The notes under the pieces are model-generated. The model worked only from the letters and a program-made list of their open reading frames with translations, did not search any database and had not been told where the DNA came from. 49,954 bases of DNA from Streptomycetaceae bacterium (lineage in GTDB: Bacteria > Actinomycetota > Actinomycetes > Streptomycetales > Streptomycetaceae): positions 1 to 49,954 of the forward strand of contig JAFAUH010000071.1 in assembly GCA_019243445.1 (NCBI GenBank), given 5' to 3'. Below are positions 24,759 to 28,390 of this stretch, one piece after another (position 1 is the stretch's first letter; each line of letters starts with the position of its first letter). The translations under genes were made by a program, and so were the position numbers.

Positions 24759-25805
24759 TCAGCCTCCGTGGCGCTGGTGGTATCTGCGTACCCGGTCGGC
24801 GACCTCACCGTCTTCGGTCTCCCACCAGGGCCGCACCATTTCAGGTGTGGCCGCGGCCTCGGCGGCGGCACTCGCAGCACCGGCTGCAGGGGACATGCCG
24901 GCCGTCGCGGGACGAGGGGCTGCGGCCGGCACCAGCTCACGGTCGAGGCGGGCGTCGAGCTCCGCGGTCTTCGCACGCTCAGTCCGCCACCATTCCACGA
25001 AGACGGCGATCAGGAACGGCAACCCCACCAGCTCGGCGAGGGCCAGCATCAGCCCGCCACCGATCTGCTGGTCGCGCTGGAGGGTTGGCCCCCAGTTGCG
25101 TGGATGGGCGGCGTACCAGTGGCCTGCCACGAGCGTGCCGCTCAGCATCACGACGATGCCGGGGACCGAGTCGAAAAGCCCGTCGATGAAGACCAGCGCG
25201 GCCCGGACGGGGTGGGTGCACCAGCGCGGAAGCAGTTCCTGCCCGGTAAGCATGGGCAGGACGAAGAGCGCACCGGTGAAGAGCAGTTGCAGATGCATCA
25301 ACTGCCGTACACCTTCGTGTGCAAGCGCAGTCCGAAAGTACGGCGTGAAGTAGATCGACAGCTCGGAGGCGAGGACGGCGGTGGTGCTGACCAGCGGGAA
25401 GGTCAGCAGCCGGACCACACGACTGCCCATTGCCGCGTCCAGACGCTCCCCTGCTCGTTCCGACAGTGCGCGGCGAGCCAGCGTCAGCGGATCCCCGAGC
25501 GCGAGGCCGAGCGGTGCGAGCAGGTCGAGCAGGATGTTCTGCACGGCGGCGGGCCAGAACAGCACTCGGCTGTAGACGGAGAGCGCCGACATCGTCGAGA
25601 AGACGATCATTCCAAGGCCGAGGAGGATGAACGCCGCGGTGCGCGGCAGCGACCAGTGCTCGCCGCGCCGCCGTAGCCGAAGCACGGCAGCCACGTACAG
25701 CCCGCCGAGCACCAGCACGAAGAGCAATGCAAACGGGTCCAGCTCCCAGGCCCCGAAAAAGCGTGCGCCTGTCAGCTCCGGCAGATCCGCCCCCAGCGTA
25801 ATCAT
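24759..25805 (-). CDS. ctaG: Cytochrome c oxidase assembly protein (CtaG/caa3-type)
   Basis: CtaG-family membrane proteins help assemble the copper centre of the terminal oxidase. The protein has 348 residues with about seven to nine hydrophobic segments between residues 20 and 290, for example FALLFVLVLGGLYVAAVL and GALFVLPMLTGQELLP. The family residues around HWSLPRTAAFILLGLG and QLMHLQLLFTG are visible. The C-terminal 70 residues are Ala-rich and charged, ending in WWETEDGEVADRVRRYHQRHGG. The ATG at 25805 begins the membrane domain. It converges with the metallo-hydrolase gene, 29 bp apart. Confidence 0.88.
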   Translation of the reverse strand: MITLGADLPELTGARFFGAWELDPFALLFVLVLGGLYVAAVLRLRRRGEHWSLPRTAAFILLGLGMIVFSTMSALSVYSRVLFWPAAVQNILLDLLAPLGLALGDPLTLARRALSERAGERLDAAMGSRVVRLLTFPLVSTTAVLASELSIYFTPYFRTALAHEGVRQLMHLQLLFTGALFVLPMLTGQELLPRWCTHPVRAALVFIDGLFDSVPGIVVMLSGTLVAGHWYAAHPRNWGPTLQRDQQIGGGLMLALAELVGLPFLIAVFVEWWRTERAKTAELDARLDRELVPAAAPRPATAGMSPAAGAASAAAEAAATPEMVRPWWETEDGEVADRVRRYHQRHGG

Positions 25806-25927
25806 CGGTACTCCCCTGCCCTCGTCATCATGTCCGCCCCAGGCATCCACGGTAGATGCCGGCACGGGAAGTCATGGCTCAGGGGCGTCCTGCGAGACGC
25901 GCGAGTCCCGTGAGGCCACCAGACTCT

Positions 25928-25957: not shown

Positions 25958-26010
25958 ATAGGGGCATCAAGCACCTGCCGTTCTCGACAACGACCATCCG
26001 GGTCCCGTGA

Positions 26011-26177
26011 TAACGACCTGGGGAGCAATAGGGAGTGGATCAGCGAGCGGCGTCATGCGGCTTCGAATCCAAGGCGGAGGAGGGAGGCGACGCGGAGCGT
26101 CGTTGACCGACGACAACGCAGGAGGCTTCAGTCGCAGGGCGTCGGGAGCCCGCTCCCTCTTGCTCCCCAGGTCGTAA
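26011..26177. mobile_element. MITE-like element with inverted ends and TAA duplication
   Basis: The element (26014-26174, 161 bp) starts CGACCTGGGGAGCAAT and ends with the complement; the arms, about 22 bp each (26014-26035 and 26153-26174), differ at one position. TAA flanks it on both sides (26011-26013 and 26175-26177), consistent with a 3-bp target duplication. It carries no transposase and has internal hairpin potential (GTCGT-TGACCG-ACGAC). It fits a non-autonomous element moved in trans; the family is not recognised. Confidence 0.6.
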
Positions 26178-26290
26178 GCGCCGGTCGAGGGGATCCACTG
26201 CTCGATGAGCTTGAGAAGCTCGTTCTCCTCGTATGCTTCTTGCCCGCCGACCCGCTCCTTGGCGCGCCTCCTGGACAAGCTTCCATGCCG

Positions 26291-28390
26291 TCAGGCCATT
26301 CCGGCCTCTCGCATCTGCCGTAGCTCCTTCTTCAGCTCGCCCACCTCGTCACGGAGCCGAGCGGCCACCTCGAACTGCAGGTCGGCCGCTGCGGCATGCA
26401 TCTGGTCGGTCAACTCGCCGATGAGCTCCGCGAGTTCTTCGGCGGGTACGCTCTTGGCAACGTCGCGTTTCTCCGCCGCCCTGCTGGAGAGGCTGGGCAC
26501 CGGCGACTTGCCACGCGACCGCTGGCGTCCAGAGCCCAGCAGTTCCTCGGTGTCGGCGTCCTCACGGGCGAAGGAGTCCAAGATCCCGGAGATCTTCTTG
26601 CGCAGCGGTTGCGGATCGATCCCGTTCTCACGGTTGAAGGCGATCTGCTTCTCACGGCGCCGATTGGTCTCGTCGATGGCGCGCTGCATGCCCGGCGTCA
26701 CCTTGTCCGCATACATGTGCACCTGACCCGACACGTTGCGCGCCGCACGGCCGATAGTCTGGATCAACGAGGTGCCCGACCTCAAGAATCCCTCCTTGTC
26801 CGCGTCGAGGATCGCAACCAGCGAGACCTCGGGCAGGTCGAGACCCTCACGAAGCAGGTTGATGCCGACAAGGACGTCGAACTCGCCGGCCCGCAGGTCG
26901 CGCAGCAGCTCAACGCGACGCAAGGTGTCGATGTCGCTGTGCAAGTAGCGCACCCGCAGGCCGAGTTCGAGCATGTAGTCGGTGAGATCCTCGGCCATCT
27001 TCTTGGTAAGGGTGGTGACCAGGACCCGCTCGTCCTTCTCCACACGCAACCGGATCTCGTGCACCAAGTCGTCGATCTGACCCTGCGTCGGCTTCACGAT
27101 GACCTCAGGGTCCACCAGGCCGGTGGGGCGGATGATCTGCTCTACAACACCGTTGCCACGGGACATCTCGTACGGGCCGGGGGTGGCCGACAGATAGACG
27201 GTCTGTCCGATCCGCTCCAAGAACTCCTCCCACTTCAGGGGCCGGTTGTCCAGCGCAGACGGCAGACGGAAGCCGTGCTCGATGAGGGTGCGCTTACGCG
27301 ACGCATCACCCTCATACATCGCACCGATCTGCGGGACTGTGACATGTGACTCGTCGATGACGAGGATGAAGTCCTCGGGGAAGTAGTCGAGCAGGGTGTT
27401 GGGCGCGGTGCCTGCCTCGCGGCCGTCGATGTGGCGTGAGTAGTTCTCGATGCCGGCGCAGCTGCCGACCTGGCGCATCATCTCGATGTCATACATCGTG
27501 CGCATGCGCAGCCGCTGCGCCTCGAGAAGCTTGCCTCGCTTTTCCAGCTTGCCGAGCGCCGCCTCCAGTTCCTCCTCGATGCCCTTGATCGCCCGCTCCA
27601 TGCGTTCCGGGCCCGCGACGTAGTGGCTGGCCGGAAAAACGTACAGCTCCTGGTCGTCGGTGACGACCTCGCCAGTGAGCGGGTGGAGGGTGGACAACGC
27701 CTCGATCTCATCGCCGAACATCTCGATGCGGACGGCGAGCTCCTCGTAGACCGGGAAGATCTCGATGGTGTCGCCGCGCACTCGGAAGGTGCCGCGAGTG
27801 AAAGCGATGTCGTTGCGCGTGTACTGGATGTCCACGAAGCGGCGCAGCAACTTGTCGCGCTCGATCTCCTCCCCCGCCCGCAGCCGGACCATCCGGTCGA
27901 CGTACTCCTGCGGTGTGCCCAGGCCGTAGATGCAGGAAACGGAGGCGACCACGATCACGTCGCGGCGGGTGAGCAGCGAATTCGTCGCCGAGTGGCGTAG
28001 CCGCTCCACCTCCTCGTTGATCGAGGAGTCCTTCTCGATATAAGTGTCCGTTTGCGGGACGTACGCCTCCGGCTGGTAGTAGTCGTAGTAGGAGACGAAG
28101 TACTCGACGGCGTTGTGCGGAAGCAATTCGCGGAATTCGTTGGCGAGCTGGGCGGCCAGCGTCTTGTTGGGCGCTATGACAAGGGCCGGGCGCTGGAGCC
28201 GCTCGATCATCCAGGCGGTGGTCGCCGACTTGCCGGTGCCGGTGGCGCCGAGCAGCACGACATCTTTCTCCCCCGCGGTGATGCGCCGTGCCAGCTCGGA
28301 GATGGCCGCTGGCTGATCGCCGCTGGGCTTGTAGGGGCTGACGACCTCGAAGGGCGCCACCTTGCGTTCGATCTCTGTTACGGGCCGCAT
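26291..28390 (-). CDS. uvrB: Excinuclease ABC subunit B
   Basis: UvrB is the helicase-like core of nucleotide excision repair; it is loaded by UvrA and recruits UvrC. The protein has 699 residues. Seen are Walker [16 protein letters not shown] near residue 47, the beta-hairpin [16 protein letters not shown], the Walker [12 protein letters not shown], the helicase motif [15 protein letters not shown], and a C-terminal UVR domain ([19 protein letters not shown]). The ATG at 28390 gives the usual Streptomyces start [20 protein letters not shown]; the ribosome binding site is weak. The 161-bp MITE-like element lies about 115 bp after its stop. Confidence 0.97.

Follow-up and report, generated by a model that had tools for sequence, protein, structure and literature searches.

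A conserved, single-strand-folding core in mobile MITEs of Streptomycetaceae recurs with many different ends

Introduction

The DNA considered here is a stretch of 49,954 nucleotides from a bacterium of the Streptomycetaceae (the window). Near its middle lies a short sequence with matching inverted arms, bordered by the same three bases on both sides. This locus raises the question of whether such a sequence is a mobile element and, if so, what moves it and which of its parts are maintained. The element measures 161 bp (26014–26174) and is without a transposase gene. The original prediction, drawn from the letters of the window, had described 22-bp arms with one mismatch, TAA borders and a body too short for a transposase; the coordinates are exact and the description holds. 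The left arm reads CGACCTGGGGAGCAATAGGGAG and the reverse complement of the right arm reads CGACCTGGGGAGCAAGAGGGAG. The features are as follows.

26011–26013, no strand: left target-site duplication, TAA (TNA on both flanks in 11 of 11 copies tested in this genome; single copy at empty sites)
26014–26035, plus strand: left terminal inverted repeat CGACCTGGGGAGCAATAGGGAG, which pairs with the right arm with 1 mismatch
26037–26155, plus strand: stretch matching the structured module (covariance model R1, 118 positions, 106.9 bits; compensatory changes at 24 of 29 pairs)
26070–26119, plus strand: near-invariant heart CAAGGCGGAGGAGGGAG..GGA..GACCGACGACAACGC on the folding strand (alignments A1 and A2; wobble asymmetry; greater stability of the core strand in all 48 elements folded)
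26153–26174, minus strand: right terminal inverted repeat CTCCCTCTTGCTCCCCAGGTCG, which pairs with the left arm
26175–26177, no strand: right target-site duplication, TAA, identical to the left
25966–26010, minus strand: decayed terC-type reading frame on one flank of the insertion (limits approximate; joined flanks match intact TerC)
26178–26280, minus strand: decayed terC-type frame on the opposite flank (limits approximate; joined flanks match intact TerC)

The arms stand out from their surroundings. No other 22-bp inverted repeat with one mismatch or fewer lies within a 400-bp span anywhere in the window (the pair appears in two registers), and 20 first-order Markov sequences of window length contain none. 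The predicted fold of the 167-nt stretch has an energy of −103 kcal/mol; shuffled versions give −65.6 ± 4.2 (z = −8.8). A search of Rfam with the window gives no gathering-level match at the element, and seven core loci return a single sub-threshold match, to an unrelated model.

The element is mobile

The window's genome (G000) is a draft assembly of 5.36 Mb in 414 contigs, and the relatives compared with it all come from a single family. It carries about 15–20 copies of the element. About a dozen of those outside the window are 95–99% identical to it, some of them cut at contig ends; beyond approximately 15 near-identical copies there are partial and several diverged or chimeric ones. The first 15 bases of the left arm occur 121 times in this genome at up to two mismatches, compared with 20 for a reversed control. 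Several contigs start inside element copies (C128:1, C308:1, C196:1 and C198:1). The assembly thus breaks at these repeats, and there may be more copies than were counted. Identical TNA triplets, either TAA or TTA, flank both sides of all 11 copies compared, so the TNA-type target duplication that had been proposed is correct.

Empty sites were sought by searching joined flanks against 150 genomes, with comparison by local alignment of the joined flanks. The window's own site is empty in two relatives (G067 and G035). Two further sites of the window's genome are empty in the congener G001: the C209 site, where one TAA is found (over a shorter stretch also in G007 and G063), and the C280 site, at 84% identity. 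Insertions of one element into another make empty sites available within the window's genome itself. In C96, a copy of the window type contains another core element, whose ends are GAGCTCCTCAC, and TCA is duplicated relative to the empty sequence of other copies. In C128, a window-type element is nested inside a core element with CTAG-flanked ends. The window element is a genuine mobile MITE, as first read. The two observations that had been named as counting against this reading, a lack of further copies and a site occupied in all species, are contradicted by the many copies and by the empty orthologous sites.

In both G067 and G035 the empty site lies inside an intact terC-type gene (PF03741, E = 2.8e-50 for the protein of G067). 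The joined flanks in the window read EENELLKLIEQWIPSTGAYHGTRMVVVENGRCLM, a decayed piece of the intact G067 TerC protein. The element thus sits within decayed terC-type remains (about 25966–26280) that are intact in a relative; decay may have preceded or followed the insertion. Its neighbours are uvrB (26291–28390, minus strand) and a ctaG-type gene (24759–25865, minus strand).

The strong conserved structure on one strand, described below, would also be accounted for if the sequence were a stationary host hairpin, either a structured RNA or a regulatory element, that merely resembled a MITE. This is hardly credible, given that relatives have empty sites, targets are duplicated, near-identical copies stand at unrelated places and elements are nested in one another. 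The empty sites rule out a fixed host hairpin as a complete account. Orientation relative to flanking genes, with a rough gene call, is inconsistent and without clear preference, which also speaks against a host function of this kind. A role as RNA is still conceivable for the mobile element.

One core, many ends

When the whole element is used as a BLAST query in relatives, matches fall mainly in the middle and not at the ends. Most of these middle matches are the centres of elements of about 160–170 bp that bear other ends. A covariance model of the core, about 118 nt, was built from 19 such elements. Of 101 host-family genomes sampled, 65 contain a match, and these span 11 of the 17 genera; the count in a single genome reaches at least 36, the scoring cap. 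A phylum-wide search finds the core in 8 of 246 genomes: five belong to the host family, and three other families contribute one genome each, with weaker matches. In two of these three outside actinobacterial families, the same architecture is present with still other ends. The named matches found elsewhere are Streptomyces. Plasmid records match the core alone, in 20 Streptomyces plasmids, and phage records contain no match. A collection-wide scan with the pattern TNACGACCTGGGGAGC returns mainly chance matches; true elements are found in Streptomyces colonosanans and palindromes consisting of terminal inverted repeats only in S. pinistramenti.

At least 10 different end sets surround the core. 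They include, with their targets, CGACCTGGGG (TNA), GGCCTGTC and GGCGTGTC (both CTAG) and GGGCTGTCCC (CTAA), as well as GACCGACCGG. Further ends seen around the core are CGACTTGGTACGC, GGCCTGTCGTTTGGATC, GGCGTGTCTTGTGGATC, GGTCCGTCTTCAAACC, GGGCTGTCCCGTAATCC, TGTCGTGTGAGGGAAGCGC, AGCGACCGAGGATTGG, GGAGGGTGCTGCAGG, GACCGACCGGCAA, AGACCCTCCGGCAATT and the GAGCTCCTCAC of the nested element. Targets across core elements are TNA for some and CTAG or CTNAG-type for others.

An ordinary MITE family might produce such a pattern if the core were inert filler inherited from a single ancestral insertion sequence, with ends that diverged gradually alongside their transposases; neither swapping of ends nor a core function would then be needed. 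Two observations agree with gradual divergence. Identity over all pairs is 0.79 in the core, 0.71 in the arms beside it and 0.60 at the ends, so that the arms are intermediate, and a loose CTAGGG.CTGTC pattern is common to several end types. Against it, some pairs of elements have cores 85–94% identical and ends at the level of shuffled 24-mers. The types of target also differ, TNA versus CTAG. Within a single genome (G023), two elements carry the same odd core variant (GATTGAG..TGATTGA) and differ in both ends and targets. Covariation on one strand and internal loops conserved across families are, moreover, unexpected of inert filler. Gradual divergence is therefore unlikely, while retaining some weight. 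Most likely, to judge from present-day sequences, the core has repeatedly acquired new ends.

Variants of the architecture occur. In two loci of Streptomyces colonosanans (L252:6628-6795 and L262:6731-6898) the ends are the same and an inner hairpin, CGCCGGAAGGTCCTCGTAGCGGAGCTACCAGGACCTTCCGG, replaces the GA loops, with CAAGGCG and CAACGC kept. At three further loci (L018:1501-1700, L021:1-155 and L057:1501-1648) the core hairpin carries foreign hairpins, GGTACCTCCCAGCAGCGAAGCTGCCTGGGGGAG and one of a CCCCCAC type, at its tip; its loop can thus accommodate insertions. The window's genome also holds at least 12 near-perfect palindromes with CGACCTGGGGAGCAA ends and without a core, among them C165:21794-21841, C180:9156-9203, C379:13854-13901, C125:3804-3851 and C178:462-509. 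Most are exactly 48 bp and some 55–58 bp long. Their arms covary, and they are flanked by direct TNA in some cases and inverted TNA in others.

The folding strand and its orientation

The core is one long hairpin with conserved internal loops. One way to draw these loops in the window (26070–26119) is as a series of tandem G-A mismatches (GA-G-GA-GG-GA opposite GA-CC-GA-C-GA), together with a tip of GGA and a bulged CAA. In a sequence-based alignment, 24 of 29 predicted pairs have changes on both sides. A larger alignment, made by fitting to the model, scores 0.634 for covariation, compared with 0.199 in shuffles and at most 0.170 with slid partners. Fitting to a model inflates covariation counts, and an unfitted set, found by BLAST and aligned by sequence, was therefore tested as well. 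Here G-T pairs outnumber A-C pairs 85 to 12, and the core strand has a consensus energy of −34.5, its complement one of −11.2. In the outer helix of the fitted set the ratio is 325 to 8, or 65 to 6 once the set is reduced to 21 clusters. In each of 48 elements the predicted fold of the core strand is more stable than that of the complement. Since G-T pairs lie far above A-C pairs, one particular strand is the constrained molecule. The modelled fold points to a constrained strand that may be RNA or single-stranded DNA; the wobble and orientation data fit either.

The orientation data come from three genomes (G102, G099 and G114) in which the origin was placed, near the chromosome centre, by clusters of DnaA-box-like sites (9–10 per kilobase). 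Of 81 copies, 60 have the core strand pointing 5' to 3' at the origin (23:9, 18:5 and 19:7, respectively; p = 1.7e-5); in this orientation the stable strand is the leading-strand template. Two copies in this set, near the two ends of the G099 chromosome, may be duplicates of each other in terminal repeats. The bias fits either a loss of copies with the stable hairpin on the lagging-strand template or biased insertion.

The excess of G-T over A-C could in principle reflect strand-biased mutation, such as cytosine deamination, and not selection on the folded strand: C-to-T change on the core strand turns G-C into G-T pairs without selection. However, it is mostly the complement of the core strand that serves as the lagging-strand template, so deamination of exposed DNA predicts more A-C pairs, and compensatory changes at most of the predicted pairs would be left unexplained. 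Mutational bias is thus a distinctly improbable source of the asymmetry.

A REPIN-like origin has also to be weighed, with movement of folded single-stranded DNA by a tyrosine transposase of the RAYT or IS200/IS605 type. It would suit the long hairpin, the strand asymmetry in folding, the replication bias of 60:21 and the presence in the window's genome of coreless palindromes (48–58 bp). Three-base direct duplications combined with terminal inverted repeats fit DDE chemistry instead, and versions of CTAG type resemble the ends of PF13340 elements. The stable strand in the common orientation is, furthermore, the leading-strand and not the lagging-strand template. Taken with these points, a tyrosine transposase is very unlikely.

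The transposase

A TNA target is a feature of one subgroup of the IS5 family, and assignment to this subgroup had been offered as a guess. The target agrees: TAA or TTA borders copies in the window's genome, and TCA the nested element. This duplication is common to the window's type and to IS5-family insertion sequences (TNA or CTAG targets) with their MITEs. Relatives of CTAG type provide a second likeness, as insertion sequences of PF13340 (DUF4096, IS5-type) with similar ends reside in the same genomes. In G031 the PF13340 transposon ends, CTAGGGCGTTTCTTTCGGATC, are identical to the end of the core element there at 18 of 21 positions, and in G021 and G007 PF13340 transposons have CTAGGGCCTGT in common with resident core elements.

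A counterpart with the window's own end type, CGACCTGG, was not found in the genomes examined. Searches for PF13340 and PF13359 in four genomes gave no autonomous element with such ends. Pattern scans of G021 and G078 and the matches listed for the window's genome likewise contained none, and a scan of all fetched loci detected no paired CGACCTGG ends around an autonomous element. Possible partners were also looked for at solo CGACCTGG ends and at C71, where a candidate is loosely paired; none qualified. Because no such element was found, we infer the transposase, and IS5 membership of the window's end type is plausible but unproven.

Proposed mechanism

The element is very probably a non-autonomous transposon that depends for movement on a DDE transposase acting in trans, with a conserved single-strand-folding core that has repeatedly been given new ends. 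The following steps are proposed. (i) A DDE transposase supplied in trans would recognize the outermost 8–15 bp or so of the ends. (ii) The element, a cut-and-paste transposon, inserts at TNA and duplicates the three bases, as its copies and empty sites show. (iii) Different insertion sequences, several of them of IS5 type, would have given the core new ends by capture or recombination. (iv) Less certainly, the folded strand, as RNA or as single-stranded DNA at replication, may serve the element, for instance in surviving replication or through recognition by a factor common to all versions. A further-reaching proposal is tentative and has somewhat less than an even chance of being right. The module of about 118 nt would be a selfish folding unit that outlives its transposons and spreads in actinobacteria via the ends of successive DDE transposons, its fold having a common function.

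Relation to known repeats and significance

Bacterial MITEs, including the IS-derived MITEAba12 and the QMITEs of Coxiella, are shorter than 500 bp, have terminal inverted repeats and a target duplication and are without a transposase gene; a transcript of one is predicted to form a stable long stem (PMC10969869). The window element has all of these features in common with them. Such MITEs are typically AT-rich (PMC10969869), whereas the host of the window element has a high G+C content. ERIC/IRU and Correia/NEMIS elements (PMC2229807) are, like core elements, 100–200 bp long hairpin-forming repeats, mostly intergenic, with RNA-type structure and a short target duplication. They have TA at their termini, in contrast to the TNA or CTAG of core elements, and exchange of ends is unmentioned for ERIC or NEMIS in that source. 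An ERIC-like identity, which implies TA termini and one conserved end set, was rejected on the targets and the many end types. REPINs and RAYT-associated repeats (PMC3116915) are similarly hairpin-forming, non-autonomous and present in many copies per genome, but core elements have three-base target duplications and terminal inverted repeats. In the open literature searched, no description was found of MITEs with one structured core, many unrelated ends and different target types, nor any report of a Streptomyces MITE with a shared core.

The status of the element as a MITE is ordinary. What is new, in that no description of it was found, is a conserved core, folding on one strand, that recurs with many end types. 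The core family is abundant and without an Rfam description, and its elements are a common source of repeats at which a Streptomyces assembly breaks. MITEs are usually seen as decayed copies of one parent, bound to the transposase of that parent. Here the centre is conserved and the ends are replaceable. If confirmed, this would raise the question of why a parasite that needs its ends alone should keep a folded core.
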